Assembly: GCA_031288475.1 (NCBI GenBank)
Contig: JAITRJ010000038.1
Location: 1 to 43,671, forward strand
Origin: Helicobacteraceae bacterium
Lineage (GTDB): Bacteria > Campylobacterota > Campylobacteria > Campylobacterales > SZUA-545
Direction of reading: 5' to 3'
Length of the DNA: 43,671 bases
Part shown: positions 25,057 through 41,813 of the stretch, in pieces
Numbering within the stretch: position 1 is the first letter of the stretch
Layout: each line of letters opens with the position of its first letter
Made by a program: the position numbers and the translations under genes
The notes under the pieces: model-generated
The model's input: the letters and a program-made list of their open reading frames with translations, nothing else
Databases searched by the model: none
What the model was told of the DNA's origin: nothing

Positions 25057-26520
25057 TCAGTACCCGCTGGACGTCAGAAGCGGCGTCAGTATCCGCATCA
25101 GCGGCTCGATCCAGAAAGCCGCGGCAGTAACAGCGGCGGCGGCGACGCCTAAAACCGCCTTGATAGCCGTCGTGCCATTCTGATAGTAAATTGTGCCGTC
25201 GTTATCCGACGGATCGTGCAGGAACATATAGATGATCAGTTTCAAATAGTAATAGACCGCGATCGCGCTGTTAACAAGCATAATGATCGCCAGCGCCAGA
25301 TGATCGTTTCTGATCGCCTCACCGATTAAAAATATTTTGCCGAAAAAAAGCGCGAACGGCGGAATGCCCGCTAAGGAGAGCATAAAGATCGCCATAATCA
25401 CGGCGCCCATCGGGCTGAGCCGTACCATGCCCGAAAACTTGCCGTAGGGGTGATCGAAACGAATATCCCACACCTTGCTCGGGTGGCGCGAAATCCAAAG
25501 CATCACGAAAGCGCCAAGATTCGTAAACAGAAAGAGCGCCCAGTACAAGAACAGCCCGACATGAGCGTCTGTTGTGCCGATCACCAACACGCTCATTACG
25601 AAACCGGCGTGGCTGATCGAACTGTACGCTAGCATACGCTTTACTCCCTCCTGCACCAAAGCCAGCAGATTGCCCAGCGTCATCGTGGCTACGACGGCGG
25701 CGAAGAGCATCCAATAGACGACGCGATCGGGGCTTTGCGCGAGAAAATCAAACAGCCTGATCGCCACGGCAAAACCCGCGATCTTTGGCACGATCGACAT
25801 ATAGCCCGCCATAGGCGCGCTGGAACCTTCATAAACGTCGGGTGTCCAAGTGTGAAACGGCACGATCGAAAGCTTAAAACCAAGCCCCGCGAGGATAAAC
25901 GCCGAAGCCGCCAATGTAAGAGGCAGGTTTTGAAAGTCGCTTGCCGCCAGCGCTAACTTGATCTCGGCGATATCTACGCTGCCTGCCGCCGCGTAAAGAA
26001 GCATCGCGCCAAAAGCGATCATAGCCGCCGCCATGCCCCCCATCGTGTAGTACTTAATCGCCGCCTCCAGAGACTTGTCGCGGCGGTGCATGCTGATGAG
26101 CGTGTAGAGCGCCAGCGAAGCGGTCTCCAGCGACAGAAGGATCACAATCAAATTGTTGGAGCTGACCATCACGGCAAAACCAGCCACCATAAACAAAAAC
26201 AGCGCATACATTTCGGCAAACTGATACTCAATAAAGCGCATGCCCGTAAGCGCGAGCGGAATAAAGAAAATCGAAGCGCACAGAATGACGCCGAGCGAAG
26301 CTAAGGAAAGCCCGTCGGCAAGCACCATATTAAAAAACCCGTTTCCCTCAACGTTTCCGTAGATTAAGAGCAGCGACGCGGCGATAAGCGATACTTCGGT
26401 CAAAGCCACCAGCAAAGCGCGGCCTGGCTTAGAAAAGAGTTCCAGCAGAAGTATCGCCACGCCGCCCGCAGCCAGCGTAATGACGGGCAGAAACGCCCCG
26501 AAATTCAACAGATCAAACAT
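25057..26520 (-). CDS. nuoN: NADH-quinone oxidoreductase subunit N
   Basis: Antiporter-like membrane subunit of complex I, 487 residues and about 14 helices. The key glutamate in the fifth-helix region (LLSLETASLALYTLISM) and the charged residues of the central proton path (GFKLSIVPFHTWTPDVYEGSS) are present. The start shares one base with the nuoM stop. Last gene of the operon; 40 bases separate it from the convergent ATPase gene. Confidence 0.96.
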   Translation of the reverse strand: MFDLLNFGAFLPVITLAAGGVAILLLELFSKPGRALLVALTEVSLIAASLLLIYGNVEGNGFFNMVLADGLSLASLGVILCASIFFIPLALTGMRFIEYQFAEMYALFLFMVAGFAVMVSSNNLIVILLSLETASLALYTLISMHRRDKSLEAAIKYYTMGGMAAAMIAFGAMLLYAAAGSVDIAEIKLALAASDFQNLPLTLAASAFILAGLGFKLSIVPFHTWTPDVYEGSSAPMAGYMSIVPKIAGFAVAIRLFDFLAQSPDRVVYWMLFAAVVATMTLGNLLALVQEGVKRMLAYSSISHAGFVMSVLVIGTTDAHVGLFLYWALFLFTNLGAFVMLWISRHPSKVWDIRFDHPYGKFSGMVRLSPMGAVIMAIFMLSLAGIPPFALFFGKIFLIGEAIRNDHLALAIIMLVNSAIAVYYYLKLIIYMFLHDPSDNDGTIYYQNGTTAIKAVLGVAAAAVTAAAFWIEPLMRILTPLLTSSGY

Positions 26521-28052
26521 CAGCGTCCCCTTTCGCCCGGCGTAGTCAGATATCTCAGTCTATCCAGTGTGTCTCTTGACAAAAGCGATTTATCCGCCAT
26601 AAAAGTAACCAAGTTTTTTGAGCTTGTATCAATCGGCTCCAGCACGGGTTTTGGATAGACGCCAAGCCATATTACGACCAAAACCAGCGGAATCAGCGCC
26701 GCAAGTTCCCGTTTATTGAGATCGCTTAGCGTTTTATTAGCCTCGATCGTAACCTCGCCGTAGAAGGTTTTCCGGTATAGGTTAAGCATATAAACCGCGC
26801 CCAGAATAATTGACGTTCCCGCCAAAAGCGCCATAATGGGGCTCGCGCGGAAATAGCCCAGCAGCGATAAAAACTCGCCCACAAAACCCATCGTCAGCGG
26901 CAGCCCAGCCGAAGCCATCGCCATAAACATAAATATCGCCGCGTAGATCGGCATAACGGAGGCGATTCCGCCAAACTCGCTCATCAGCTTCGTATGACGA
27001 CGATCGTAGATTACGCCCACAAGCATAAACAGCGCGCCGCTGATAATGCCGTGGCTGAGCATAAAGAACACCGAGCCGCCGATCCCCTCCGCGTTCAGCG
27101 CGAACGTTCCCAAGATAATCACTCCCATATGACTAATCGAACTGTAAGCGATAATCTGTTTAATATCCTTTTGCGCAAACGCCACCATCGCCGCGTAAAT
27201 AACCATAATAATCCCGATCGCGCCCATAAACGGCGCGAAATAGACGCTCGCGTCGGGGAAAAGCGGCAGGCTGAAGCGCACAAAGCCGTATGTCCCCATC
27301 TTCAGCAGTACGGCGGCAAGCAGCACCGAACCGATTGTCGGAGCCTGCCCGTGCGCGTATGGTAACCATGTGTGAAAGGGAAACACAGGAACTTTCACCG
27401 CAAAACCAATTCCCATTGCGACAAAAAGCCAGAGCTGATGCTCAAAACCGATACGGAACATAAACCACTGTATGATGTTGAAGGTGAGAACGCCGGTCTG
27501 CTGATAATAAAGCCACGCGAAATACAGGATTGCTAAAAGCAGCAGAAGCGAACCACTAAAGGTATAGATAAAGAATTTCACCGCCGCGTAGATTCGGTTG
27601 CCGCTGCCCCATGCGCCGATAATATAGAGCATCGGCACAAGCGAAAACTCCCAGAAAAAGTAAAAAACTATCGCATCCAGCGCGGCGAATACGCCGATCA
27701 TAGTCATTTCTAATATCAAAATTGAGGCGACAAGATTTTTAAGCCGCTCCGTTTCGCCAAGCGCGATCAGGGCGATGAGCGTGATAAAGGCGCTCAGCAG
27801 AATCATAAAGAGCGAAAAACCATCCACGCCGACCGTATAGGAAACGCCAAACGATTCGATCAGCGGTACGCTGACGTAGAATTGCATAGTCGGATCGGCG
27901 GGATTGAACATAAACCAGACTAAAAGCGAGAGTGTCAGCTCGACCGCCGCCGCCGCGATCGCGTAACCCCGTATGCGGTCTTTGGGGATTCCAAAACCGA
28001 CGAGCGCCGCCAGAAGCGGAAAAAATATAAGAATTGAGAGAATGTGATCCAA
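26520..28052 (-). CDS. nuoM: NADH-quinone oxidoreductase subunit M
   Basis: Antiporter-like proton-pumping subunit, 510 residues with about 14 helices. The essential glutamate E135 (FWEFSLVPMLYII) and the half-channel lysine region (AVKVPVFPFHTWLPYAHGQAPT) are visible, as is the broken-helix pattern around KQIIAYSSISHMG. One base separates it from nuoL. Confidence 0.97.
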   Translation of the reverse strand: MDHILSILIFFPLLAALVGFGIPKDRIRGYAIAAAAVELTLSLLVWFMFNPADPTMQFYVSVPLIESFGVSYTVGVDGFSLFMILLSAFITLIALIALGETERLKNLVASILILEMTMIGVFAALDAIVFYFFWEFSLVPMLYIIGAWGSGNRIYAAVKFFIYTFSGSLLLLLAILYFAWLYYQQTGVLTFNIIQWFMFRIGFEHQLWLFVAMGIGFAVKVPVFPFHTWLPYAHGQAPTIGSVLLAAVLLKMGTYGFVRFSLPLFPDASVYFAPFMGAIGIIMVIYAAMVAFAQKDIKQIIAYSSISHMGVIILGTFALNAEGIGGSVFFMLSHGIISGALFMLVGVIYDRRHTKLMSEFGGIASVMPIYAAIFMFMAMASAGLPLTMGFVGEFLSLLGYFRASPIMALLAGTSIILGAVYMLNLYRKTFYGEVTIEANKTLSDLNKRELAALIPLVLVVIWLGVYPKPVLEPIDTSSKNLVTFMADKSLLSRDTLDRLRYLTTPGERGR

Positions 28053-28053
28053 T

Positions 28054-29946
28054 TTACGCTCCTTGTATCAGCAGTCCGATATAGGCTATCAGCAGCAGAA
28101 CGATCAAACCCGCCGTCATCCAGCGCAGCATAGGCGAAAGGCTGCCATTGTGCATCTTGCGGCACCTTCTGCCCGCCGCGTAAGTAGCTTTGGCGATCAA
28201 ATCGACTACGAAATCCACGATTTTGAGATCGATCTTTCGCCATAAAAAATCACTTGCCGCCATATACGGCGAGATAATCGCTTTTTTATATAACGCGGGG
28301 ATATACCACTCGTTACTCAAAAACTTATAGAGCGGAGAGTTTTGCCAATTCGGACTGAAGCCGCCTCTGGCATATTTCCAAACGGCAAAAGCTATGCTCG
28401 CGATAACCAGCGTCAGCGTCGTGCCGATCAACGCGTATTCAATCGAATGCTCTAAATGCGGCGTGTCTGTGCGCAGCATTTTGGAAACGAGGTTGGTATA
28501 GCCCGCCTCAAACAAGCCCGCGATAATTGCTAGTAGCGCCAGCGGCGACATAGCCGCAAGCATAAGCTTCGGCGCTTCGTGCGGATGAATGCGCAGTTTT
28601 TCGTAGTTTGCCTCTTTACCGAAAAAGACGACCATCACGACGCGGAAGCTATAAAACGCGGTCATCGCTGCCGTTATCAGCAATACCGCCCATATAACAT
28701 AGTGCGAGCTTCCAAACGCGACTTCGAGTATTTTATCTTTGGAAAAAAAGCCAGCGAAAGGATAGACGCCCGCAAGCGCGATCGAGGCGATCGTCATCAT
28801 AACTGCCGTCGGTTTCATCGCCGACCATAATCTGCCCATCTTGCGGATATTAAGTTCGTCGCGCATAGCGTGCATCACGTTACCCGCGCCTAAGAACAAA
28901 AGCGCCTTGAAAAAGGCGTGCGTCGCAAGGTGAAACAGCGCCACCCAGTAGTAACCAAGCCCAGTCGCAGCAAACATATAGCCAAGCTGAGAAAGCGTCG
29001 AATAGGCGATGATCCGCTTAAGATCGGCAGCGACAAGCGCCATGGAAGCGGCAAAAAACGCCACGAACGCGCCCAGCGCCGCCACGAACGCGCCGACTTC
29101 ACTTACCGCGCTATAGAGCGGACTAGCGCGAACCAGCAGATAAACGCCTGCCGTAACCATCGTCGCCGCGTGGATCAGCGCCGAAACGGGCGTGGGCCCC
29201 TCCATAGCGTTGGCAAGCCACGTGTGCAACGGAAACTGTGCTGATTTGCCCATCGCGCCGATAAACAGTAAAATCGCAATCCATATCAAAACGCCGCGCT
29301 CCACAAAACGGAGCGCCGCGAAAACATCGTCGTAGCGGAGCGATCCGATCTGCCAATAGATTAAAAATATGCCAAGCAGCATTCCCAGATCGGCTACGCG
29401 GTTCATAATGAACGCTTCGTTTGCAGCCCACGAGGCAAACGGCTTGCGATACCAAAAGCCGATAAGCAGATAAGAGCACAGTCCAACCCCCTCCCAGCCT
29501 ACAAACAACCCCAAAAAGTTGTCGCTCATCACCAGAACCATCATCGAGAAAACAAAAGCGCTGAGGTAGCTGAAAAAGCGGTTGAAGCTTTTATCGTGCG
29601 CCATATAGCCGATCGAGTAGATATGAACGACAGTCGAGACGAGCGTAACGACGCACATCATAACGGCGCCAATCTGATCGGCGGCGAAGCCGAACTTCAG
29701 ACTCAGCCGTCCAGAGACGATCCAGTCAAAAAGTACGACGCTAACCCGCTCGCCTTGCGTATAGACAAAATACAATAAGGTTAAAGAGGCGGCTAACGAG
29801 AGGGCTAACAGAGCGGTTGGCACAATTCCCGCTGCGATCCTTTTTTCTTTCGCGCCGAAAAACAGGCCCGCGAACAGCGAGCCCGCGAGCGGTGAAAATA
29901 ACGCGAACAGCAGTAACGCTTCCATCGCAAAAGTATGTAAAGTCAT
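28054..29946 (-). CDS. nuoL: NADH-quinone oxidoreductase subunit L
   Basis: Distal proton-pumping subunit, 630 residues: about 14 core helices (GWEGVGLCSYLLIGFWY with the key glutamate, and SAQFPLHTWLANAMEGPTPVSALIHAATMV), followed by the long lateral helix and a final membrane helix at the C-terminus. An AAAGGAG site precedes the ATG; the 54 bases to nuoK hold nothing else that I recognise. Confidence 0.97.
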   Translation of the reverse strand: MTLHTFAMEALLLFALFSPLAGSLFAGLFFGAKEKRIAAGIVPTALLALSLAASLTLLYFVYTQGERVSVVLFDWIVSGRLSLKFGFAADQIGAVMMCVVTLVSTVVHIYSIGYMAHDKSFNRFFSYLSAFVFSMMVLVMSDNFLGLFVGWEGVGLCSYLLIGFWYRKPFASWAANEAFIMNRVADLGMLLGIFLIYWQIGSLRYDDVFAALRFVERGVLIWIAILLFIGAMGKSAQFPLHTWLANAMEGPTPVSALIHAATMVTAGVYLLVRASPLYSAVSEVGAFVAALGAFVAFFAASMALVAADLKRIIAYSTLSQLGYMFAATGLGYYWVALFHLATHAFFKALLFLGAGNVMHAMRDELNIRKMGRLWSAMKPTAVMMTIASIALAGVYPFAGFFSKDKILEVAFGSSHYVIWAVLLITAAMTAFYSFRVVMVVFFGKEANYEKLRIHPHEAPKLMLAAMSPLALLAIIAGLFEAGYTNLVSKMLRTDTPHLEHSIEYALIGTTLTLVIASIAFAVWKYARGGFSPNWQNSPLYKFLSNEWYIPALYKKAIISPYMAASDFLWRKIDLKIVDFVVDLIAKATYAAGRRCRKMHNGSLSPMLRWMTAGLIVLLLIAYIGLLIQGA

Positions 29947-30000
29947 AAAATCTCCTTTTTGTAGAAAGAAAAATACCTGACAGATTTACAGGATTGTCCC

Positions 30001-30303
30001 TTACCCATTCATATTCTTGATAACGTTGAGATCCAAAGAACCTTTGCGCTTATACAGCAAAATTAACAGCCCAAGCCCCACCGCCACTTCCGACGCGGCG
30101 ATCGCGATAATAAAAAAGGCGAACACTTGACCGGTCAGATCGCCTATATAGCGCGAAACAGCGACAAGCCCTACGTTTACGCTGTTTAACAGAATCTCGG
30201 TAGAGAAAAAAAGCAGAAGAAGATTCTGTCTGCGCATAACCCCAATCAAACCGATCGCGAAAAGGATGGCGCTGAGTGTCAGATAATGCGTCAAAGTAAT
30301 CAT
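30001..30303 (-). CDS. nuoK: NADH-quinone oxidoreductase subunit K
   Basis: Three-helix membrane subunit, 100 residues. Both conserved membrane glutamates are present (FFSTEILLNSVNV in helix 2, and IAIAASEVAVGLGL in helix 3), forming part of the central hydrophilic axis. Its start overlaps the nuoJ stop by 4 bases (ATGA). Confidence 0.96.
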   Translation of the reverse strand: MITLTHYLTLSAILFAIGLIGVMRRQNLLLLFFSTEILLNSVNVGLVAVSRYIGDLTGQVFAFFIIAIAASEVAVGLGLLILLYKRKGSLDLNVIKNMNG

Positions 30304-30818
30304 TTCTTTCTCTCCTCGCTATGCGTATATTCCATCTTTCTGCTTGCCAGAAGAATGCCCGCAATCATAGCCGTAAGCAGCAGCAGCCCCGAAAGCTCGA
30401 ATGGCAGCAGATATTCGGTAAAAAGCGCGACGCCAAGCGTTTTCACGTTGTTCTCCCCCGCAATGCCGCCGCCTTCGATCAAAACGGACGGCGCGGCGAT
30501 CATCAGCGCCGCCACCAGCGCGGTAAAGGCGCTTAGCACAAACACTAACCGCTCCGCCGCAATCTCCTCATAAACAGGCTTGGACGCGTCAAAAAACATC
30601 ATGCCAAAAGCGTACAGCGCAACCACCGCGCCCGTATATACGACAATCTGCACGACTCCCATAAAGTCCGCGTCCAGCAGGAAGAAAAACGCGCTGATAA
30701 AGATCATACCGGCCGCAAGCGCGCTGAAACTGTATACGATCTGACGGCTCATTACCGTAATTGTAAAGCAGCCGATTACCAAAGCGGCGAAAAGATAAAA
30801 AGCGATTGTTTCAAACAT
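30300..30818 (-). CDS. nuoJ: NADH-quinone oxidoreductase subunit J
   Basis: Membrane subunit with five helices, 172 residues. The helix-3 segment MGVVQIVVYTGAVVALYAFGMMFF, which contains the pi-bulge region gating proton transfer, is well conserved. It lies 9 bases after nuoI. Confidence 0.95.
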   Translation of the reverse strand: MFETIAFYLFAALVIGCFTITVMSRQIVYSFSALAAGMIFISAFFFLLDADFMGVVQIVVYTGAVVALYAFGMMFFDASKPVYEEIAAERLVFVLSAFTALVAALMIAAPSVLIEGGGIAGENNVKTLGVALFTEYLLPFELSGLLLLTAMIAGILLASRKMEYTHSEERKK

Positions 30819-30827
30819 CTCTCTCCT

Positions 30828-31406
30828 TCAGTAAGCAAGCGGGGTTTGCTTGACGTTTTTGTCCGCGTCGGCGCCGATCGCGCCGAAACCATCAAACTCT
30901 TTTTGCAGCCTGATCGCCTCTTTCTGAGAGAGCATGTCGTCCTTAATGGAAAAGTGTGCTCTCTGTTCGCTGGCGTTTTCAAAGCGATCTCCATGAACAA
31001 TCGCGAGTTCGGGGCAGACCTCGGCGCATAAGCCGCAATAGATGCACCGTCCAAAGTTAATCGTGTAATCCCTCACTTTCTTACGGGAATCCTCGCCCAG
31101 ATACGTCTCAATGCGAATCGACTTCGCCGGGCATATCTTTTCGCACAGACCGCACCCAATGCAACGCTCCGCGCCGCTTTCAAACAGGCGAAGAAGCTTG
31201 TGAATAGCGCGGTAGCGTTTGGAAATCGGCAGCCGCTCTTTTGGATAAACAGTCGTATGAGTAGGATCAGCGGCAAAAACCTTAAATACAACCCACAACC
31301 CTTTCAGCAGCTCAAATTTCAGCGATCGTCTGACAAGCTGTTTGAAGCGCTCAAAACCGTTCTGTGGACGCGCCGCCGATTTAATCTGAATATATCCGTT
31401 TTTCAT
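30828..31406 (-). CDS. nuoI: NADH-quinone oxidoreductase subunit I
   Basis: Peripheral-arm subunit with two 4Fe-4S clusters (N6a and N6b), 192 residues. The ligands are C82/C85/C88/C92 (CIGCGLCEKIC) and C121/C124/C127/C131 (CIYCGLCAEVC). I choose the second of two close ATGs (31404-31406), since TAGGAG lies 6 bases before it but directly abuts the first. It passes electrons from NuoG to the NuoB N2 cluster. Confidence 0.96.
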   Translation of the reverse strand: MKNGYIQIKSAARPQNGFERFKQLVRRSLKFELLKGLWVVFKVFAADPTHTTVYPKERLPISKRYRAIHKLLRLFESGAERCIGCGLCEKICPAKSIRIETYLGEDSRKKVRDYTINFGRCIYCGLCAEVCPELAIVHGDRFENASEQRAHFSIKDDMLSQKEAIRLQKEFDGFGAIGADADKNVKQTPLAY

Positions 31407-31415
31407 CGTCATCTC

Positions 31416-32411
31416 CTACATTATCACCAAGGCGGTAATCAGAATATTGGCAACCGCCAGCGGCATTAAAACCTTCCAGCACAGCCACATCAACTGATCG
31501 GGGCGGATATGCGGCCATGCGCCGCGTACGAGACAGAACATAAAGAAAAAGAAAGCCACCTTCAGAAATATGGCGAGTGTGCCCGGTATGAAGTAAAAAT
31601 CGTTGTAACCGCCTAAAAATATCAGCGAGATCAAAAAACAGATCGTAAACATATTGGCATACTCGCCGATCGCGAACAACCCCCAATGAATGCCCGAATA
31701 CTCCGTCGCGTAGCCGGTAACCACCTCCGCCTCGTGTTCAAGCAGATCAAAGGGAGTACGGTTGGTTTCGGCGTAACCTGCCATCATAAAAAGCGCGAAG
31801 GCAAGCGGCTGCTTGAAGATCATCCAGTCAAACAGCCCGCCCGCCTGATAGTCATTCAGGTGTATAAGCGAAAGCGAGCCGACCAGCAAAATAGGGCTAA
31901 GCAAAGCAAGTCCGCTGATCACTTCGTAACTGATCAGTTGAATCGCCGTACGCGCGCCGCCCAAAAGCGAGTATTTATTCACAGACGCGATCCCGCCAAG
32001 CAACGGACCGTATAAACCGCTCGCCATCACGCCAAGAACGAATAAAACGCCGACGTTTATATCCGCCACAATCGGTTTGATCGTGTGTCCGAACATCTCG
32101 AAAGGTGCAAAAAACGGTACGGCGGACATCGCTATGAACGCCGTGGAGGCGGTGATGACCGGCGCGATAAAGAAGATAGGTCTGATCGCGTGGCGCGGAA
32201 TGATATTCTCCTTTGTGAACATCTTGATCCCGTCCGCCACGATCTGCAAAAGCCCCAGCGGACCTACGTGCATAGGACCTTTGCGCCGCTGCATAAACGC
32301 GAGCAGCCGCCGCTCGAAATACGTCCCATACCCCGCTAGTGCGGAAAAGAACAAAACTACGACGATCGCTTTAATAATGGTTTCAATCACAAAAAAAATT
32401 AAATCGCCCAT
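31416..32411 (-). CDS. nuoH: NADH-quinone oxidoreductase subunit H
   Basis: Membrane subunit that forms the quinone chamber together with NuoB and NuoD, 331 residues with eight helices. The segments FMQRRKGPMHVGPLGLLQIVADGIKM and NRTPFDLLEHEAEVVTGYATEYSG carry the conserved charged residues of the family. It lies 2 bases after the second nuoG. Confidence 0.97.
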   Translation of the reverse strand: MGDLIFFVIETIIKAIVVVLFFSALAGYGTYFERRLLAFMQRRKGPMHVGPLGLLQIVADGIKMFTKENIIPRHAIRPIFFIAPVITASTAFIAMSAVPFFAPFEMFGHTIKPIVADINVGVLFVLGVMASGLYGPLLGGIASVNKYSLLGGARTAIQLISYEVISGLALLSPILLVGSLSLIHLNDYQAGGLFDWMIFKQPLAFALFMMAGYAETNRTPFDLLEHEAEVVTGYATEYSGIHWGLFAIGEYANMFTICFLISLIFLGGYNDFYFIPGTLAIFLKVAFFFFMFCLVRGAWPHIRPDQLMWLCWKVLMPLAVANILITALVIM

Positions 32412-32413
32412 CT

Positions 32414-34645
32414 TTATCCTTTTGTAATTTTCGCTGAAATAAAGCGGTAGCCGTCGGCGCTGCCATCAAAATCCGGAAGGAAAGCGAAGCTGCCGCCAAT
32501 AAATCTGTCAAGCACAACCGGCAGAGCCGTTTTGATGTCACCCCCGATCACAGCCGTTTCTCCCTCTTCAAGTGCGTTGGCTCTTATAAACTCCGCGCTA
32601 GCGTGGAGCGCCGATCTGATATCCAGAGCCTTCGCGCCAAAGGGGTTAAAAGCGTCGATTGGGTTTGCGCGGTAGATCACACTCCCTGTAAGCGGCGGCA
32701 GACTGGAAACGGCCGCGGACGTATTTTTGATCGCCACGTTCTCTATTGCCAGCGCGTAACCCCTAACTTCCCTGCCGTCAGCGTCAAAGCTGTTTTTCAG
32801 ATCGTCGTATGAAACACCCTTTGGCAGCTCGGCGGTTAAGTCTGCCGTTTTTTCAATCTCGCACCCCAATCCATTTGCCAGATCGGTAAGCGTATAGCCG
32901 TCATACGGCAGGGCGGGCGCGATTGGCAGAACGCGCCGATCAATATTTACAACTGTCCCCTCCTGCTGATTGAGCGGCGGCATATCAAGATTTCCACCAC
33001 CAAGCGCGCTCAAGGTAAAATCCCCTTCCGCGTTGTAGCCAACCGTAAAACCTCCGCCTTTTTCGTCCAGATCGGCAAATAAAGCCGCACCCAAAGAATT
33101 TACAAAGCGGGGGGAGATGATCACGCTGAATGGCGTAGCGCGTTCAATCGTTCCAAGCAGCGTGGCGATGTTCTCCCATTGCGGATGAAAGATCAGATCG
33201 CTTCCAGCGATCAGCGTGAATCGCTCTCTGCCCTCCGCCAGCTTGTCGATCGCCTCCAGCTCCTCGCCGCCAAATACGATTTCCTCGCCGCCGAAATCGT
33301 GGATTTTCTTCCTGTCGGCGAAACGGTTTAGTATCTTGAAAAGAATCTCTGCTTCGCCTAGCGGCGCGGCACGCATAGGTAAAAAGTTTTTGTGAAGCGA
33401 ATCGAGCAGTTTATCCCCTACGGGATGAAAGTCGATCGCCGCCGCCTTTCTAACCATAACGGCGTTGACCACTGCCGATCGCAGCGCTGGGTTGTCGTTG
33501 CCAAGCCTGCATCCGATCGAAACGATGAAGTCGCCAAGATCGCGCTTGCTCCCGCTGTAAAGCGATCTCCCAGCCGCCAATGAAAAAAGCCGTAAAAAAC
33601 ACTTATATGAGAACGCGTCTTTATTGATAAGTTTTACGCCAAGCAGTGCCTTGAGCCTGTTTAGGATCAAAATCTCCTCGTTGGTGATAAGCGACGAAAA
33701 GCGGATCGTTTCCGCTTTTTTAAGCGCCTTAACTGCTTTCTCAAACGCGCCGCTATCTTTTTTAGCGCCGTTTGAGTAATTAAACGCGAAACGTCCCGCT
33801 CCGCAGAGAGTCTCAAAATGAAAATCGCTGGTAACGCGGTAGATCGCGTCGTGCGGATCGTCTATGCCGCCCTGCTTCACATCGTAAAAAAGGTGGCACG
33901 CGCTGGGGCAATGCACGCAACTCGAGACGATGCGTCTCAGCTCCCACGCGTTGGAGCGGTATTGAAAATCGGCGGTTATCATCGCCCCAGTTGGGCAGAC
34001 TGCCGCGCACTCGCCACAATTGACGCAGTTGTCGTACTTCGGCGATTGTGAGATCAGCGATTTGTTCAGCTTATTCCACACAGCATAGGCGTCTTTGGGC
34101 ATAGACTCTTTATACCCCTCCGCGATCGCTTCCGATCCGCGCGGCGACGTGGCAAGCGCCACAGCCCCAACCCTATCCTTGCAAACCGTAACGCACCGCT
34201 CGCAGACGATGCAAAGAGCGGGATCGTAGCGGGTCCGTCCCCAGATAACAGCTTTTTTGGCGGTATCCCTGATCGCGTAGTTCTGGGAGTTTACCTCCTG
34301 AAAAAGCGTATTGTCCTGCAGTTCGCACTCGCCCGATTTATCGCACACGCCGCACTGAAACGGGTGGTTTACCGCATACACCTCCATAATGGCAGCGCGA
34401 TCTTTGCGCATCTCCTCGCTGTCCGTAACGATCGCCATTCCCTCTTTTGCTTTCGCGTTGCAGGAATAAACCCGCTTGCCGTCGGCCTCAACCATGCACA
34501 GCCTGCACGCGAGCGTGGGCGAACAGCGCGTCAGGCAGCAGATCGCGGGGATAAATATGTTGTTGGCGCGGGAGATCGAAAGGATCGTCTCTCCCTCCAT
34601 CGCCTTTATCTGTCTGTTGTTGATTGTTAATGTGATCTCCGCCAT
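32414..34645 (-). CDS. nuoG: NADH-quinone oxidoreductase subunit G, second paralogue
   Basis: Large iron-sulphur subunit, 743 residues. The N-terminus has the 2Fe-2S set (N1b), then the HxxxCxxCxxxxxC motif (HPFQCGVCDKSGEC), two ferredoxin-type 4Fe-4S sets (CIVCERCVTVC and CVNCGECAAVC) and the CxxCxxxC plus distant C of N7. The C-terminal molybdopterin-oxidoreductase-like part is degenerate, as in all NuoG. Start is the ATG at 34643-34645, one base after the upstream nuoG stop and behind GGGAG; the frame is open 24 codons further upstream. It follows a shorter NuoG paralogue. I recall two nuoG genes in some free-living Campylobacterota. Confidence 0.92.
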   Translation of the reverse strand: MAEITLTINNRQIKAMEGETILSISRANNIFIPAICCLTRCSPTLACRLCMVEADGKRVYSCNAKAKEGMAIVTDSEEMRKDRAAIMEVYAVNHPFQCGVCDKSGECELQDNTLFQEVNSQNYAIRDTAKKAVIWGRTRYDPALCIVCERCVTVCKDRVGAVALATSPRGSEAIAEGYKESMPKDAYAVWNKLNKSLISQSPKYDNCVNCGECAAVCPTGAMITADFQYRSNAWELRRIVSSCVHCPSACHLFYDVKQGGIDDPHDAIYRVTSDFHFETLCGAGRFAFNYSNGAKKDSGAFEKAVKALKKAETIRFSSLITNEEILILNRLKALLGVKLINKDAFSYKCFLRLFSLAAGRSLYSGSKRDLGDFIVSIGCRLGNDNPALRSAVVNAVMVRKAAAIDFHPVGDKLLDSLHKNFLPMRAAPLGEAEILFKILNRFADRKKIHDFGGEEIVFGGEELEAIDKLAEGRERFTLIAGSDLIFHPQWENIATLLGTIERATPFSVIISPRFVNSLGAALFADLDEKGGGFTVGYNAEGDFTLSALGGGNLDMPPLNQQEGTVVNIDRRVLPIAPALPYDGYTLTDLANGLGCEIEKTADLTAELPKGVSYDDLKNSFDADGREVRGYALAIENVAIKNTSAAVSSLPPLTGSVIYRANPIDAFNPFGAKALDIRSALHASAEFIRANALEEGETAVIGGDIKTALPVVLDRFIGGSFAFLPDFDGSADGYRFISAKITKG

Positions 34646-34646
34646 T

Positions 34647-36677
34647 TTAATCTCCCGCTTTTGATAGCTTAACCGACTCAAACCTATAGCCGTTTTGGAT
34701 ATGCTCCTGCAAGTCAAAGACCTCTAGATCGGCAATCGTGCCCTTCAAATTCTTATCCACAATAAAACGCCGCTTGAAAACGCTCTCCCTCGCCCTTACC
34801 GTAATCAGATCACCATCACTGATACCGCCGGAAATCGCAAATTGAACCGAACCGCGCAAAAAACCCTCTTTTTTATAACCGCGGCTGACAAAATGCACCA
34901 CCGTCCCGTTGAACTCCCCGATCGGCGCAACCTGTTCCGGCAAGTGGACGCTTATTACGCACCGCTTCGTTTTCAGCGTATACGTTTCTATGCGGTCAAA
35001 GGCGATCTGCTTAAAGCCTTTCTCAGATGGCAGTCTCTCCGTGCAATCGATCGTCCATCTGATCTTCTCGCCGAGCTTTCTGGCAATGGAACCAAGCGTT
35101 TCGCCGCTGTATGCGAGCGCCGCATGGAGCGGCTTAACTTCTCTGTCAATCGTCGCAATTGTTCCCTCCTGATAAATCGCGGGAATATACGGCAGCCTTA
35201 CGGCGTTCTCAGCCGGAACAAGATTGCACAGCAGCGCGATGCCAAGAGCGTTGGCTGAGGGCGGGATCATCAGCGTCTCCATACCCGCCCTGCGCAGAAA
35301 GCCTACAAGCTTGGCGATCGCCTCCGATCGTACGTGGGAATACATCTCGCTGCCAACGATCAGCGTGGTCTTGAGGGCAATCTTGCCTCGTAAAATTTCT
35401 ATCTCCTCCTCGCCTACGTTCGATTCGGCGCAGATGTTTCCGTAATCAAGCGCGTCAGCCCATTTTTGAACGCCCGCGCGATCGGCAAAAAGACTCAAAA
35501 TCAGCGCTAAAACTCCCTCCTCCGCGCCAGCCTCGTAGCGAATTCTCTGCGTACTGATCCAATCCGCGCGATCGATCGGGCTGATCGTGATCACCTCCGC
35601 GCCGTTCATCGAAGCGTGACAAATAGCGCTGTAAAGCAGGGGAACCTCCGTCATAAGACTGGATGAGACGATCAAAACCGCGCCGCTTGTACGCACCGCA
35701 TCGATATCGGCGCTGTAAAGCGATTCGCCGCACACCGCGCCGTACACGCGTAAAAAGCTCTGAAACGCCCGTACGCTATCGTTGGCGATCAAAAAGCCAA
35801 GTTTTTCCGACAACAGATTAAGCAGATACGCCTCTTCGTTGCTGCTGCGGCCATCAATTTCAACGACCCCGCACAGCGCCTCGGCGGAAGGGGCGCCGTT
35901 TAACCAAAAAAGAGCGTAGCGCCCAAGCGCACAGAGAGGGAGTGCTTCCACGTCGTTCGTAACGCGTGTAAGCCGATCTCGTTTGGTTTCGTAAAAAAGA
36001 TCGCAGCCGCACGGACACACCGCGCATGTCGAAGGCGTTCTGGTAAGTTCCCACGCGTTTACACGGCACTTAAATGTCATAGAAACGATCGCGCCGACAG
36101 GGCAGACTGCCGCGCATTCGCCGCAGTCGGAACATCGGTTTTGATCGAACTCGATCTTTGATCGATAGCCGTTCGCCCGTATCTTAAGCGCGTTTAGCCC
36201 CACCGCCTCGTTGCAGACGCGCGCGCACCGCTCGCACATGACGCACAGCGCGGGATCGTAGGAAAGCGTCGCCCACGTTTCGACTGTCCGCTTAGGCTCT
36301 CTGGCGAAAAACCGCTGTTCGCTCAAGCCGAACTCCAGCGCTTTATTCTGCAATTCGCACTCGCCCGATTTATCGCACACGCCGCACTGAAGCGGATGGT
36401 TGACGCAGAGCATTTTGATTACTTCGCCTCGTATTCCGCGCAGTTCCTCCGAATCAGTCTCTACGATCAAGCCGCCGATCACCTTTGTCTGGCAGGCGCG
36501 GACGAAGCCGATGGAACGATCAGTCTTAACGAGGCAAAGCCCGCACGAACCGCTCGCGCTCACCTTTGAGAGATAGCACAGCGCGGGGATATACACGCCG
36601 TTTGCCCGCGCCGCCTCCAATATCGTCGCCCCCTCCTGCGCTCTGATTGTCTTGCGGTTCATCACCAGCGTTATCAT
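34647..36677 (-). CDS. nuoG: NADH-quinone oxidoreductase subunit G, first paralogue
   Basis: A 676-residue NuoG paralogue, only distantly similar to its neighbour in the C-terminal half. It keeps the N1b cysteines (CYLSKVSASGSCGLC and a later C), the His/Cys3 motif (HPLQCGVCDKSGEC), two 4Fe-4S sets (CVMCERCARVC and CSDCGECAAVC) and the N7-type CAVCPCGC with a distant cysteine. The start is the ATG at 36675-36677, which overlaps the stop of the fused oxidoreductase as ATGA; an upstream start is less likely. Perhaps one paralogue binds the special input module, but this is inference. Confidence 0.9.
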   Translation of the reverse strand: MITLVMNRKTIRAQEGATILEAARANGVYIPALCYLSKVSASGSCGLCLVKTDRSIGFVRACQTKVIGGLIVETDSEELRGIRGEVIKMLCVNHPLQCGVCDKSGECELQNKALEFGLSEQRFFAREPKRTVETWATLSYDPALCVMCERCARVCNEAVGLNALKIRANGYRSKIEFDQNRCSDCGECAAVCPVGAIVSMTFKCRVNAWELTRTPSTCAVCPCGCDLFYETKRDRLTRVTNDVEALPLCALGRYALFWLNGAPSAEALCGVVEIDGRSSNEEAYLLNLLSEKLGFLIANDSVRAFQSFLRVYGAVCGESLYSADIDAVRTSGAVLIVSSSLMTEVPLLYSAICHASMNGAEVITISPIDRADWISTQRIRYEAGAEEGVLALILSLFADRAGVQKWADALDYGNICAESNVGEEEIEILRGKIALKTTLIVGSEMYSHVRSEAIAKLVGFLRRAGMETLMIPPSANALGIALLCNLVPAENAVRLPYIPAIYQEGTIATIDREVKPLHAALAYSGETLGSIARKLGEKIRWTIDCTERLPSEKGFKQIAFDRIETYTLKTKRCVISVHLPEQVAPIGEFNGTVVHFVSRGYKKEGFLRGSVQFAISGGISDGDLITVRARESVFKRRFIVDKNLKGTIADLEVFDLQEHIQNGYRFESVKLSKAGD

Positions 36678-38662
36678 AACGCCACCATAGCTATGTAATA
36701 ACAGCGCATACAACGATCGCTTTCATCAAAAGCATCCCGCGCCATCAGACCGCGGCTTACTTCCCGATTGCCGCCTCTGCGCTCGTCAACAGAAAGCTTT
36801 TTTGATTCCAACCGTTCCATGCCGCCCAAAAATCCCTCTATGTCCCCCTTGTGATAGACGCGGAAGGTACGCAGCAACTCGTCCATAATCTCATCGCTGT
36901 CTCGTACGATCTCGCCCGTTCGCAGAAAACGCGCGATCACGCTCGCAGCGCGTCTTGCCTGACCTACGGCGTTAACGATCGTCATCGGCCCGTACTCGCA
37001 GTCGCCCGCCGAAAACACCCCCATTTTGGTGGTAGCGTAGGTTTTGCCATCGGTCCTGATCGTTCCCCAGCTTGTCATAGCGATTTCCCATTCGTCGGGG
37101 ATATACGAAAGATCGGGCGACTGGCTCACGGCAGGGATCAGATAGTCGCATTCAATTTCAAAGTCCGCGCCCTCCACCTTGAAAAGCTGCGCTCTGTCTC
37201 CTGGTCCCTCCCGAAACTCGTAGCGGTTGCACAAAAGCTTTTTGATCATCCCGTCATTATCTTCAATGCGATCGATTGCCGAGTGAAAGATAAACTCCAC
37301 TCCCTCCTCGACCGCCTCCTTGTACTCTTCCAGCGAGGTGTTGCCTACAATCGTCCGCTCATCACGGCGGTATAGCATAATAGCCCGCGTCGCGTTCGCC
37401 CTGATCGCGCAGCGCACCACATCCATAGAAGTAAATCCGCCTCCCACGCAGACGACGGTTTTATCGGAGAGATCGACTTTTTCGCCGATTTGGAATTTCT
37501 CCCAGAGATTCACCCGATCAAGAAAATCGATCGCCCCCCAGTATCCTTTCAATCCCTCGTCTTCATTTTCACAACGTATCTTTTTGGAGAGTCGGGCGCC
37601 TGTGGCAAGCAAGATCGCGTCATAGTCTCTCTCAAGCTCCCTCATCTTTTCTTTACCGATCTTGCTGTTCAGATAAATCTTGGCGCCGCCCGATTTGACG
37701 AATTCAATATCAGCAAGGTATTGCTTGTACGGCATACGATACTCCGGCACGCCTACCATTACCTCGCCGCCGGCGACGGGCAGACTCTCAAATATGTCGC
37801 ACTCCACGCCATTTATGGAAAGAAAGTAGCCTGCTGTCAATCCGGCCGGACCGGCGCCAATAACAGCAACTTTTTTACCAATCGAATCTTTTTTATCAAA
37901 CGGCTGCGTAAACTCCATACGATGCCTGAACTCGTAATCAGCGCCTACGCGTTTAAGCTCCATAATGTTCAGCGGCTTATCTATATCCTTCCTGCGGCAA
38001 ACCGCCTCACACGGGTGCGGGCAGACGCGTGAGCAGGTATGCGCAAGCGGCATCGTCCTGCGCACCGCCCGCAGACTTTCGATCGGCTGACGATCCCTGA
38101 CCCCTTCAATATAGGCGGGAATATCGACGCGATTAGGGCAAGCGTCAATACACGGCGCGGTAATTCTGGCGCGGTTTTTCCGATTTTTCGCGTAATCTCT
38201 GCTCTGCCTGCGCCCCGATATGCAACCGTTAAAACTGTCGGGAAAGTACTCAAGCAGATGTAAAACTGCATTTGGCGTCGTGCGCCCGATCTCACACTTG
38301 GAAGCCGATCTCATAACGCCTGCGGTTGCCCTGAGCCGAGCTATGTCCTCCTTCTCGCCCTCGCCTCTTGCTATTTTGTCAAGAATGTCAAACAATACCT
38401 GCCCGCCCGCTCTGCCGGCGGCGCAACGTCCGCACGCCTCCGTGTAGTTCTGATACTGAAAAACGTAATCCAGCGCGAGCGTCAGTACGTCAATCGAGCC
38501 GTCAAAGATCGAAACGCCGCCCCAGCCGATAAACGCCCGTACCGCATGGTTGCGATCGAACGTCTGCGGCATCTTGAGATCACACTTTAAGTAATCGCTG
38601 TCGGCGCGGTAGCGGTTATCCAGCACTTCGCCGCGCCATGTGCTAAACCAAGGAGCGCTCAT
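36674..38662 (-). CDS. NuoF-like / GltD-like fusion oxidoreductase, predicted complex I input subunit
   Basis: A 662-residue fusion. Residues 40-150 resemble the C-terminal 4Fe-4S domain of NuoF (GWGGVSIFDG, EACGRC, KIARGEGEKEDI, GRTTPNAVLHLLEYFPDSF), but the third cluster cysteine is glycine: C77, C80, G83, with C123 kept. Residues 165-235 form the double-cluster domain of GltD-type enzymes (C171, C175, C210, C214, C218, C222). Residues 260-570 carry two dinucleotide-binding folds: GAGPAG at 269-274 for FAD, and GGGFTSMD at 407-414 with YRR downstream for NAD(P)H. A CxxC stands near the C-terminus. No FMN/NADH domain of true NuoF is present. The start, 38660-38662, overlaps the NuoE-like stop as ATGA. 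By position it takes the place of NuoF. Confidence 0.85.
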   Translation of the reverse strand: MSAPWFSTWRGEVLDNRYRADSDYLKCDLKMPQTFDRNHAVRAFIGWGGVSIFDGSIDVLTLALDYVFQYQNYTEACGRCAAGRAGGQVLFDILDKIARGEGEKEDIARLRATAGVMRSASKCEIGRTTPNAVLHLLEYFPDSFNGCISGRRQSRDYAKNRKNRARITAPCIDACPNRVDIPAYIEGVRDRQPIESLRAVRRTMPLAHTCSRVCPHPCEAVCRRKDIDKPLNIMELKRVGADYEFRHRMEFTQPFDKKDSIGKKVAVIGAGPAGLTAGYFLSINGVECDIFESLPVAGGEVMVGVPEYRMPYKQYLADIEFVKSGGAKIYLNSKIGKEKMRELERDYDAILLATGARLSKKIRCENEDEGLKGYWGAIDFLDRVNLWEKFQIGEKVDLSDKTVVCVGGGFTSMDVVRCAIRANATRAIMLYRRDERTIVGNTSLEEYKEAVEEGVEFIFHSAIDRIEDNDGMIKKLLCNRYEFREGPGDRAQLFKVEGADFEIECDYLIPAVSQSPDLSYIPDEWEIAMTSWGTIRTDGKTYATTKMGVFSAGDCEYGPMTIVNAVGQARRAASVIARFLRTGEIVRDSDEIMDELLRTFRVYHKGDIEGFLGGMERLESKKLSVDERRGGNREVSRGLMARDAFDESDRCMRCYYIAMVAL

Positions 38663-38892
38663 CCGCCGGTTTTCCTTACAACGTGCATCCAATCGACCTC
38701 GTTGTACTTCAGCGAGTTAAGCAGCTCAAAACCGCTTTCCTTGATCGCCTCCGCGCTCCGCTGGACAGAGGAAAAATCGCTGATCTCAAATATAAAAACA
38801 GCGCTTTCACCAGCCTCAACGCCGTTGTTGATCATATCTATCATCCTCTCCGTAAAATTGTTTTTCAGCTCTCTTAAATCGTAGCGCTTCAT
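38659..38892 (-). CDS. Small NuoE-position protein of complex I
   Basis: A 77-residue protein with no cysteines and hence no cluster, unlike true NuoE, which has four. It is alpha/beta (VFIFEISDFSSVQRSAEAIKESGFELLNSLKYNEVDWMHVVRK). A protein of about this size occupies the same place between nuoD and nuoG in H. pylori and C. jejuni, where it is thought to help accept electrons from a donor other than NADH. It ends in an ATGA overlap with the fused oxidoreductase, so the two are probably made in equal amounts and may bind each other. Confidence 0.75.
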   Translation of the reverse strand: MKRYDLRELKNNFTERMIDMINNGVEAGESAVFIFEISDFSSVQRSAEAIKESGFELLNSLKYNEVDWMHVVRKTGG

Positions 38893-38903: not shown

Positions 38904-40133
38904 CTACCGATCGATTTCGCCGAAAATCACGTTTGTGTTGCCAATAATCGCCACAACGTCCGCGAGTTGCGATCCAACAAGCAGATCTTCCAGCATCCCA
39001 CAGTGAAAAAAGCTTGGACCTCTTACCTTCACCCTGTTTGGATATGGATCGCCCAGCGACGAGATGAAGAATCCCAACTCCCCTTTGGGCGATTCTGTGG
39101 CGACATAAACCTCTCCTTTGGGAGGGCGCATGCCCTGCGTTACAAGAACGAAATGCTGCATCAAAGAGTAGTTCTGCGTCATCAGTTGCTCTTTGGGCGC
39201 GCTGATATATTCCGGTTCATTCGCCATTAGTTCCGGCGGCGTGTCCGCGTAGATTTTAAGTCCCTGCCGCACAAGCCTGATCGACTGCCATATCTCCTCT
39301 ATGTAGAGACGGTATCTACCGTAACAATCGCGGGAGTCGGTTACGGGCACGTCAAAATCAACCTCGCCGTAAAGCTCATAAGGCTGCTCTTTGCGCAGAT
39401 CCCACTCAAAACCGCTTCCGCGCAGCATTACGCCGCTTAACCCCCAGCTTTGGGCAAGTTCGGGTGAGATTACCCCGACATTCTCCAGCCGCATACGCCA
39501 GATGCGATTTTCCTTCAAAAGCGCGTCGTACATTTCGATCTGTTTTGGTAAAAAATCCAAAAACGCCCTGCACTGCTTGATCCATTCCGCCGTGAAATCC
39601 AATGGAACGCCGCCGATTCGTATCGCGTTATGCGTCATTCTCGCCCCGCAATATTCCTCAAAGAGATCCAGCGCGTACTCCCGTTCGCGGAACGGATAGA
39701 GCATCATACTCATTGCCCCGACATCCAGCGCGTGGGTGGAGAGAAAAAAGAGGTGGCTTGCTATGCGGCTCAACTCCAGAAGGACAAGACGGATCGCCTG
39801 CGCTCTCCTGGGTGCCGCGATTCCAAGTAGCGTCTCCACCGCCAGCGCGAAACCATAGTTGTTGCTGGTGGCGTTGATGTAATCCATACGATCGGTCGTC
39901 GGCAGAAACTCGTTGTAGATCATGTTCTCAGCCATCTTCTCCACACCGCGGTGTAAAAAGCCGATATTTGGACTGGATTTAACCACCATCTCACCCTCTA
40001 GCTCCAGAATCAGATTCATCTGACCGTGCGCGCTGGGGTGCTGTGGTCCAAAGTTTAAGATCATCCGGTTGCTGTCGCGCTCGAAGGATATGTTGTCGTA
40101 AAATGGTCTAAGTCTGTTAGGCGTCTGTGTCAT
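38904..40133 (-). CDS. nuoD: NADH-quinone oxidoreductase subunit D
   Basis: The 49-kDa-type subunit, 409 residues, which with NuoB forms the quinone reduction site. The N-terminal [22 protein letters not shown] loop contains the quinone-binding histidine; the hydrogenase-like cysteines are absent, as expected. The C-terminus ends [17 protein letters not shown]. It is separate from nuoC (5-base gap), not fused. Confidence 0.97.
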
Positions 40134-40138
40134 AGCTG

Positions 40139-40933
40139 CTACTTTCTCTTGTCCAGCACTTTTTGCTTTCGCGGATCGAAATCACTGTGCAAAATAGGCA
40201 GACGGCGCTCAAGATAAACGATGGGGGTAGCCTCGTCGCTTGGCGGGAAACCAAACGGCACTTCGTACCCAAGCCGCGCGTAGTTTTTCGTATCGTTTCG
40301 ATCGATCCTGCCAGCGTCGCGGTTTTCTTCGCCTACAAGATTCCTATTCTCCTGACCGTAAATTTTATCCACCTCATACCAGCGGGCAAACTCGTCGCCC
40401 TGCAAGGGATAGGTTTTACGTAGCGGGAAACCTACCCAGTCGTCCGGCATCAAAATCCGCTTCAGACGCGGGTGGTTGTTGAAAACAATCCCGAACATAT
40501 CGTAGCATTCGCGTTCCGACCAATTCGCAGAACGCCACAGATCGGCAACGCTTTCAATACATTCCCTCTCTTTAATCGCCGTTTTGAGACGCAGCCGGCG
40601 GTTTTTGGAAACGCTAAGAAGCTCGTAAAATATCTCAAACTCCCCGCGCGCGGCAAGAAAATCAATCGCGCTCATCTCCATAAGCTCCGTATACCCAACC
40701 GACTTTAAAAACGCCAGAGCCTTCTTATTGTCGGCAGCCTTAACGATCGATACGGCTTCGTTGCGCATAAAATAGCTTTCAACAACTAAAAGCCGCTTGC
40801 TAAGCGCTTTCACATCGGCGCTTACGATTTCATCACTGATCTCCGTTTTCTCAATCTCCTTCGGCACATAGAAACGATCGGTGTGATAGGAGCGCTTTTG
40901 TACGTTGTCTTTCGGGGTGTACGGTCTGAACAT
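40139..40933 (-). CDS. nuoC: NADH-quinone oxidoreductase subunit C
   Basis: The 30-kDa-type subunit, 264 residues, long for the family. The signature [44 protein letters not shown] is at about 135-180. An N-terminal extension and a long C-terminal tail are typical of the Campylobacter and Helicobacter forms. Its start shares one base with the nuoB stop (TGATG). Confidence 0.95.
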
Positions 40934-41442
40934 CAGATAAACCTTTTCGCGCTTTTTTTGCGGTTTTTCGGCTCGCTTCTGATCTTACGCTGAAGCATCA
41001 TCGTAGCATAGATCAGTGTGTCGGGGCGCGGAGGACAGCCGGGCAGATAAATATCGACCGGAATGATCCGATCGACACCCTGCACGGTAGAGTACGTGTT
41101 AAACAGCCCGCCTGTGTTGGCGCAGCTACCCATTGAGATCACCCATTTCGGCTCCGCCATCTGATCGTAAAGACGGCGGACAAACGGCGCATGCTTTTTG
41201 CTCACCGTGCCCGCTATGCACATCACCTCTGCCTGACGAGGAGAAGCGCGGAAAATAGTGCCGAGCCTGTCAAAGTCGAAACGACCGCCGCCTGAAGCCA
41301 TCATCTCAATCGCGCAGCAAGCCAAGCCGTAGGTCAAAAACCACAGCGAATTACTACGCCCCCAGTTCACGAGCCGATCAACCGTCGTCAGAGCGACGGG
41401 GAATCCAAAATCCTTCAGATAGTTTATTTGATGGTATGCCAA
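40933..41442 (-). CDS. nuoB: NADH-quinone oxidoreductase subunit B
   Basis: Subunit holding cluster N2, about 169 residues. Ligands are the CC pair ([11 protein letters not shown]), the cysteine in GSCANTGG and that in GCPPRPD. I favour a TTG start at 41440-41442: AAAGGGAG lies 7 bases before it and the resulting MAYHQINYL matches the family start. An ATG seven codons upstream (41463) is possible but has no good site. Either way the start lies within the end of nuoA. Confidence 0.93.
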
Positions 41443-41813
41443 TTCAGCGCTCCCTTTCTCCATTCATATATAAAGCCCACAGCGAGAATTAGCAAAAAGA
41501 CGACCATTCCTCCGAAGGCAAGCGCCCCGTTACCCTTTTCCACAAGTTCCCTGAACCCGACAGCCCACGGAAACATAAAGATAATCTCGACATCAAACAG
41601 TATAAATAAAAGAGCATAGAGGTAGAACTGCGGGCTTATGCGGTTTGGCTGCAACGACGTTTCGGGACCGCACTCGTAAATTGACAGCTTGAGCTTGAGA
41701 TCATCCCTTCGCGCGAGCGTGTTGCCGCACCACGCGGATAACAGCACGGTCGCGGTAAACGCGCCAAAGGTCAATACAAACAAAAAGGCAACGCCAAAGT
41801 ATTGGTGTTCCAA
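41424..41813 (-). CDS. nuoA: NADH-quinone oxidoreductase subunit A
   Basis: Three-helix membrane subunit, 129 residues. The loop [35 protein letters not shown] carries the conserved cysteine and acidic residues near the quinone cavity. The start is TTG at 41811-41813, preceded by AGGGGGG; no ATG lies suitably near. First gene of the operon, divergent from the hsrA-like gene by 170 bases. Confidence 0.95.

Follow-up and report, generated by a model that had tools for sequence, protein, structure and literature searches.

A NuoF-Remnant/GltD-Type Fusion Protein and Tandem NuoG Proteins in the Complex I Operons of Campylobacterota

Many Campylobacterota carry a complex I operon in which nuoE and nuoF are replaced by genes for two other proteins, here named E' and F', followed by two nuoG genes (nuoG1 and nuoG2, encoding G1 and G2). 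F' combines the C-terminal bundle of NuoF with a GltD-type module bearing [4Fe-4S] clusters, FAD, and an NAD(P)H site. Our favored reading, to which we attach moderate confidence, is that E'-F'-G1 forms an alternative electron-input module of Campylobacterota complex I, with an FAD/NAD(P)H entry and docking on NuoG. This F'-type complex I with tandem NuoG is found in most of the sampled families of the phylum, including vent and sediment chemolithoautotrophs, and it suggests that the complex I of Helicobacter and Campylobacter, the usual description for the phylum, is a reduced state. The electron donor of complex I and the source of NADPH in chemolithoautotrophs become directly testable. Within the literature searched, outside which most subscription papers lay, we found no earlier account of the GltD fusion, of the tandem NuoG, or of the origin from G1 of NuoY, the small protein of the reduced operons.

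The nuo operon and the proteins E' and F'

The window, that is the whole stretch of DNA analyzed, comprises 43,671 nucleotides of a Helicobacteraceae bacterium (contig JAITRJ010000038.1). The 15 genes of a nuo operon lie on its minus strand, starting at position 41813 and ending at 25057, and follow one another as A, B, C, D, E', F', G1, G2, and H to N (table 1). A first-pass annotation made from the letters of the sequence had reported that no canonical nuoE or nuoF lies between nuoD and nuoG, and that a 77-residue protein without cysteine is coupled by ATGA to a 662-residue protein, itself coupled by ATGA to nuoG. Both ORFs were confirmed on the minus strand, as were the 4-bp overlaps at the E'/F' and F'/nuoG1 junctions. 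The second NuoG, at which this annotation had hinted in passing only, turns out to be central; F' is paired with two NuoGs. Three other ORFs of the window deserve mention. One, at 41984-42706 and divergent from nuoA, resembles an OmpR-type response regulator; another, downstream of nuoN (23994-25016, plus strand), encodes 340 aa with no Pfam match; the third, at 2489-5347 and adjoining ftsK, encodes a protein with a flagellin N-terminal domain that is, at 952 aa, longer than flagellins usually are.

Table 1. Features of the nuo Operon in the Window and of the F' Protein
Feature	Position	Strand	Evidence or remark
nuoD, nuoC, nuoB, nuoA	38904..41813	-	Upstream of E', same operon
E' (nuoE position), 77 aa, no Cys	38659..38892	-	Pfam PF16514 NADH-UOR_E; 2LXR match
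F' (nuoF position), 662 aa, NuoF-remnant/GltD-type fusion	36674..38662	-	Pfam domains, homolog alignment, structure matches
F' residues 74-144, NuoF C-terminal four-helix [4Fe-4S] (N3) domain, PF10589, third Cys = Gly	38231..38443	-	
F' residues 77-83, CGRCAAG, remodeled N3 motif (canonical CGxCxPC)	38414..38434	-	117/117 homologs; HoxF comparison
F' C123, further N3 Cys	38294-38296	-	117/117 homologs
F' residues 168-247, Fer4_20, six Cys (171, 175, 210, 214, 218, 222) of two GltD-type [4Fe-4S] clusters	37922..38161	-	
F' residues 263-569, FAD + NAD(P)H Rossmann module, R309 (= NfnL R201), Y431-R432-R433	36956..37876	-	
F' residues 651-654, CMRC, GltD CxxC pair, C-terminal here, N-terminal in GltD/NfnL	36701..36712	-	
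nuoG1, 676 aa, extra NuoG with N1b, N5, N4-type, and N7 cysteines	34647..36677	-	
nuoG2, 743 aa, core-complex NuoG, the one retained in reduced operons	32414..34645	-	
nuoH to nuoN, downstream, same operon	25057..32411	-	nuoH = PF00146; nuoI-N by position and matches of fetched operons

The Pfam family PF16514 (NADH-UOR_E) covers the whole length of E' (E = 4e-32), which is therefore a member of a named family; it is homologous to HP1264 of Helicobacter pylori, whose structure has been solved (PDB 2LXR; phmmer, E = 7e-20). Of 298 evenly sampled Campylobacterota genomes, 242 contain E', and it is absent from all 14 control genomes of other groups. A member of this family adjoining nuoD is also a feature of the epsilon-type complex I, and E' is common to the operons with F' and G1 and to those with NuoY. 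In one genome of family f11 (G262, locus L193, 4211-5266), a single 351-aa protein is a fusion of E' and NuoY, which suggests that E' contacts the C-terminal domain of G1.

Searches of F' against Pfam detected NADH_4Fe-4S (PF10589, E = 7e-18), Fer4_20 (PF14691, E = 4e-18), and Pyr_redox_2 (PF07992, E = 2e-24), and no Complex1_51K domain. These profiles bear out the earlier description of F' as a NuoF-like C-terminal domain joined to a GltD-type double 4Fe-4S and FAD/NAD(P)H module in which the NADH/FMN fold of NuoF is missing. The "cluster domain" of that description needs a correction: PF10589 is present, but it retains merely three of the four N3 cysteines. Among 117 distinct F' homologs, C77, C80, and C123 are invariant and the third N3 position is always Gly83. 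The HoxF proteins of relatives read ESCGKCxPCRVG...SLC(A/G)LG, and F' reads EACGRCAAGRAGG...SKCEIG at the same place. As K122 and E124, which flank C123, are also invariant in the homologs, the N3 site has been remodeled in a set manner and is not drifting. Because the third cysteine is lost, a cluster at this site is uncertain: it could be a [3Fe-4S] cluster or a [4Fe-4S] cluster with another ligand, or the site could be empty. Of the GltD-type cluster cysteines, all eight are retained across the 117 homologs, one truncated row excepted, and both the GxGxxS loop and the YRR motif (Y431-R432-R433) are invariant. Such conservation of architecture and ligands excludes chance. The predicted structure of F' is of moderate quality (pLDDT 76), weakest around the GltD clusters. 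At four loci of family f14 (L167, L169, L179, and L180), F' is 890-960 aa long, with an N-terminal region that is much longer and has diverged; it still has the three N3 cysteines and both clusters of the GltD type.

Two types of operon and the origin of NuoY

F' was found in 81 of the 298 genomes. Full-length homologs with 55-66% identity occur in most related families, and the best 80 matches of a scan of genome contigs are all from Campylobacterota as far as their titles show. Related fusions in other Campylobacterota, which the first-pass annotation had considered possible, therefore do exist, and with so wide a spread F' is a conserved feature of the phylum and neither an oddity of one genome nor an assembly error.

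According to their gene order, two types of operon are distinguishable among those compared, which came from about 20 families. Type I operons are organized as E'-F'-nuoG1-nuoG2-nuoH, and the order E'-F'-G1-G2 is found in nearly all loci long enough to judge. Type II operons read E'-NuoY-nuoG-nuoH, with a NuoY of 230-340 aa, and occur in families f11 and f20 and in parts of f9 and f14, taken as relatives of Campylobacter, Sulfurospirillum, Arcobacter, and Helicobacter. The NuoG N5 motif (PF10588) is present in at least two copies in 79 of the 81 genomes with F', the other two being G023, where the locus is cut by the contig end, and G308. Both G1 and G2 harbor the N1b, N5, and N4 ligands of a canonical N-module and additional ferredoxin-type cysteines; all G1 proteins have the N7 cysteines, as do 12 of 17 G2 proteins. 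At locus L149 (3425-5689), F' is followed by a single NuoG with a G1-like N-terminus and a G2-like C-terminus, then by nuoH. Either the tandem copies have recombined, in which case two NuoGs are perhaps not strictly needed, or the assembly has collapsed. At locus L086 (3234-4465), two overlapping ORFs make up nuoD, probably through an assembly frameshift.

NuoY is not found at the window locus: F' and G1 stand where an epsilon-type operon has this small protein in place of NuoF. Blast already linked NuoY to the C-terminal part of G1. Using hhalign, it aligned over nearly its full length to G1 positions 342-750, with one central segment skipped (probability 100, E = 9.6e-57), compared with E = 1.1e-23 against G2. 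These profile comparisons identify NuoY, which replaces F' and G1 in the Helicobacter/Campylobacter-type operons, as a remnant of the C-terminal half of NuoG1, and on this ground we rejected NuoY as a substitute for NuoF or NuoE. A tree was built from NuoY and the corresponding part of G1. In it, the NuoY of f14 groups with the G1 of f14, and those of f9, f20, and f11 lie beside the G1 of f9 and f7. This topology suggests that at least two parallel truncations gave rise to NuoY; a single origin is disfavored by the tree but not formally rejected (AU test, P = 0.0504). The equivalence of NuoY with Cj1574c and HP1265 rests on position and family rather than on direct sequence comparison; the remnant reading would give these proteins an origin.

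In reviews, the epsilon-type Nuo is described as having nuoXY instead of nuoEF and as receiving electrons from flavodoxin or ferredoxin (PMC6682613), an account given likewise for Sulfurospirillum (PMC4585668), and genome papers list a plain nuoABCDEFGHIJKLMN (PMC4584990). The C. jejuni complex takes flavodoxin as donor according to work cited in PMC6682613 and PMC4178425. The first-pass annotation had drawn on this background, stating that two small proteins replace NuoE and NuoF in H. pylori and C. jejuni. This account is incomplete, and the two proteins are not simple replacements: E' occurs in operons of either type, and NuoY derives from NuoG1.

Electron input and alternative readings

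Neither PF01512 (NuoF) nor PF01257 (NuoE) is found in the window's own genome, a 1.25-Mb assembly that is 71% complete; the canonical nuoE-nuoF pair elsewhere in the genome, which the first-pass annotation had named as fatal to its proposal, is therefore missing from this assembly. The NuoF NADH/FMN domain PF01512 is also absent from 18 of the 24 F' genomes checked, all at least 90% complete and most finished. In the remaining six, the match lies within a frame of 545-583 aa, which at the two loci read (L175 and L176) is part of a hox-type operon, as judged by a PF10588 neighbor and by the lengths and arrangement of the ORFs for the small and large subunits. Most F' species thus have a complex I without the canonical NADH door. 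At L175 and L176, which belong to relatives of the window's organism, the operon is apparently that of a soluble NAD-reducing [NiFe] hydrogenase (hoxEFUYH) whose HoxF is the sole PF01512 match; it was not found in the incomplete window genome.

We infer the substrate, the electron path, its direction, and the docking of the module as follows. NAD(P)H, and most probably NADP(H), would exchange hydride with the FAD of F'. Electrons would then pass one at a time from the FAD through the two GltD-type [4Fe-4S] clusters to the Fe-S chain of NuoG1, from there to NuoG2, directly or via the remodeled N3 site (C77/C80/C123), and through NuoI-NuoB to menaquinone, with proton pumping. In StnC, a NuoG scaffold surrounds a GltD domain, and by analogy a NuoG should be the docking site for the GltD part of F'. 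The N3 bundle may bind the next NuoG in the way the NuoF C-terminus does in ordinary complex I, which would explain its retention without the FMN domain. Type II operons would have arisen by loss of F' and of the Fe-S half of G1, with NuoY, E', and a NuoG2 supplied by flavodoxin or ferredoxin remaining. The module may run in reverse in autotrophs and use the proton motive force (pmf) to reduce NADP+. Among genomes having E' or F', ATP-citrate lyase (PF16114) is found in 62 of the 81 with F' and in 6 of the 162 without it (Fisher's exact test, P = 2e-33). On the NuoD tree, few independent events underlie this association: the four pairs available gave about two concordant cases, no discordant case, and two ties, which falls short of significance once relatedness is taken into account. 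The family of the window has F' and lacks PF16114. We therefore rejected the idea that F' is strictly tied to the reductive TCA cycle; the association hints, without proving it, that autotrophs use the module to supply NADPH. Genomes of family f15 (e.g., G028, G045, and G059) encode ATP-citrate lyase and show no E', F', or NuoG motif, in keeping with the truncated complex I reportedly described for Nautilia.

The NAD(P)H-type flavin module makes the GltD-like part a likely entry point for electrons, as the first-pass annotation had proposed. Its further suggestion of electron bifurcation fares less well. F' would in that case split or merge electrons among NAD(P)H, ferredoxin or flavodoxin, and quinone, as NfnB does. 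R309, the equivalent of NfnL R201 near the FAD N5, is invariant (117/117), the nearest solved relatives of F' are NfnAB and NfnABC/StnABC, and the extra ferredoxin-type cysteines of both NuoGs could be taken in the same sense. However, StnC has the NfnB arginine and its GltD-type FAD is reported to be non-bifurcating (PMC10482914). In addition, the NuoF-type FMN domain, the proposed bifurcation site of Stn/HydABC, is absent, position 210 of F' is a cysteine where PfNfnL aligns a threonine, and no NfnA-like partner is encoded between nuoD and nuoG. We regard bifurcation as quite unlikely; an ordinary two-electron/one-electron gate, reversible in principle, is favored because the StnC-type FAD is described as non-bifurcating despite its arginine and because F' has no FMN domain. 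The nucleotide itself is probably NADP(H), judging from family resemblance, since Y431-R432-R433 and the GxGxxS loop both conform to the GltD/NfnB/StnC type. A swap of flavoenzymes restoring an ordinary NADH dehydrogenase would agree with the production of NADH by a Hox-type hydrogenase in some relatives and with the serine of GxGxxS in F' where GltD has GxGxxA. The invariant YRR argues against NADH, as does the use of NADP(H) by the best-characterized relatives, namely GltD, DPD, and, as given in PMC10482914, StnC and NfnB. We give the NADH alternative a low probability.

That F' and G1 are vestigial or structural, with G2 receiving electrons from reduced flavodoxin or ferredoxin as happens in C. 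jejuni and with no respiratory use of the FAD module, would account for their repeated loss while E', G2, and a G1 remnant stay; the flavodoxin dependence of the C. jejuni complex and the missing N3 cysteine of all F' point the same way. Yet the FAD/NAD(P)H motifs and all GltD-type cluster cysteines are invariant across divergent lineages, and a decaying module would not retain them, so that this explanation appears unlikely. As a member of the GltD family, the module could also be a glutamate synthase small subunit that came to lie in a nuo operon by chance. This was rejected, its probability being close to nil: a separate GltD-type gene elsewhere in the genome (L002) makes F' unneeded for glutamate synthesis, nearly every locus has F' placed between E' and nuoG1, and F' carries a NuoF domain. 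We thus retain E'-F'-G1 as an input module. The more complete scheme, a proton-pumping complex I with two NuoGs in series, NADP(H) as substrate, the three-cysteine former N3 site as a bridge, and reversible activity as a pmf-driven quinol:NADP+ reductase, of which the Helicobacter and Campylobacter enzymes would be parallel reductions, is a tentative proposal.

Comparison with known systems

Chains of NfnABC/StnABC are the nearest solved relatives of F', in sequence (9bov_A, E = 2e-73) as well as in fold (E = 5e-36 with the pLDDT 76 model; 8oh5_C among the best). Residues 96-567 of 9bov_A, within a NuoG chain, match the GltD part of F', and the G1 profile (94-488) aligns to residues 562-974, on the far side of the GltD part; a second stretch was also found. 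In StnABC, electrons of NADPH pass through the FAD and the clusters of StnC to a cluster of the NuoF-like StnB (PMC10482914). Like F' and G1, StnABC and NfnABC (8oh5, 9bov, and 9n5u) combine a GltD-type FAD/NADPH module with a NuoG scaffold. They differ in being soluble, in having complete NuoE and NuoF (FMN) subunits, neither of which is found here, and in carrying GltD inside the NuoG chain. The window has the GltD part joined to a NuoF remnant and encodes NuoG as a separate protein in two copies, all within the operon of a proton-pumping complex.

NfnAB (5jca and 4ylf) shares with F' the NfnB-type FAD module, the two [4Fe-4S] clusters, and the conserved arginine near the FAD N5, an arginine also present in the non-bifurcating StnC. 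Unlike NfnAB, the F' locus has no NfnA partner, C210 stands in place of the threonine of PfNfnL, and there is no sign of bifurcation. GltD itself has a partner GltB gene and an N-terminal CxxC, and F' matches it in neither respect, the GltD-type gene of this genome being L002 and the CxxC of F' being C-terminal. SfrAB of Geobacter also consists of GltD-like and NuoG-like subunits; as described in PMC7483475, it is soluble, lies outside complex I operons, and has no NuoF bundle, and it is set apart here by description only.

With the canonical NuoEFG N-module, the window shares the operon position, the NuoF C-terminal bundle, and the NuoG clusters. It differs by the absence of the NADH/FMN domain and of the NuoE [2Fe-2S] thioredoxin fold, by three of four N3 cysteines, by two NuoGs, and by an FAD module instead. 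The epsilon-type complex I of C. jejuni and H. pylori (NuoXY; Cj1575c/Cj1574c and HP1264/HP1265) has the same operon and the same E' family, likewise without NuoE or NuoF. Its operons, however, encode neither F' nor a full G1, and their small second protein NuoY corresponds, by profile comparison, to what is left of the C-terminal half of G1.
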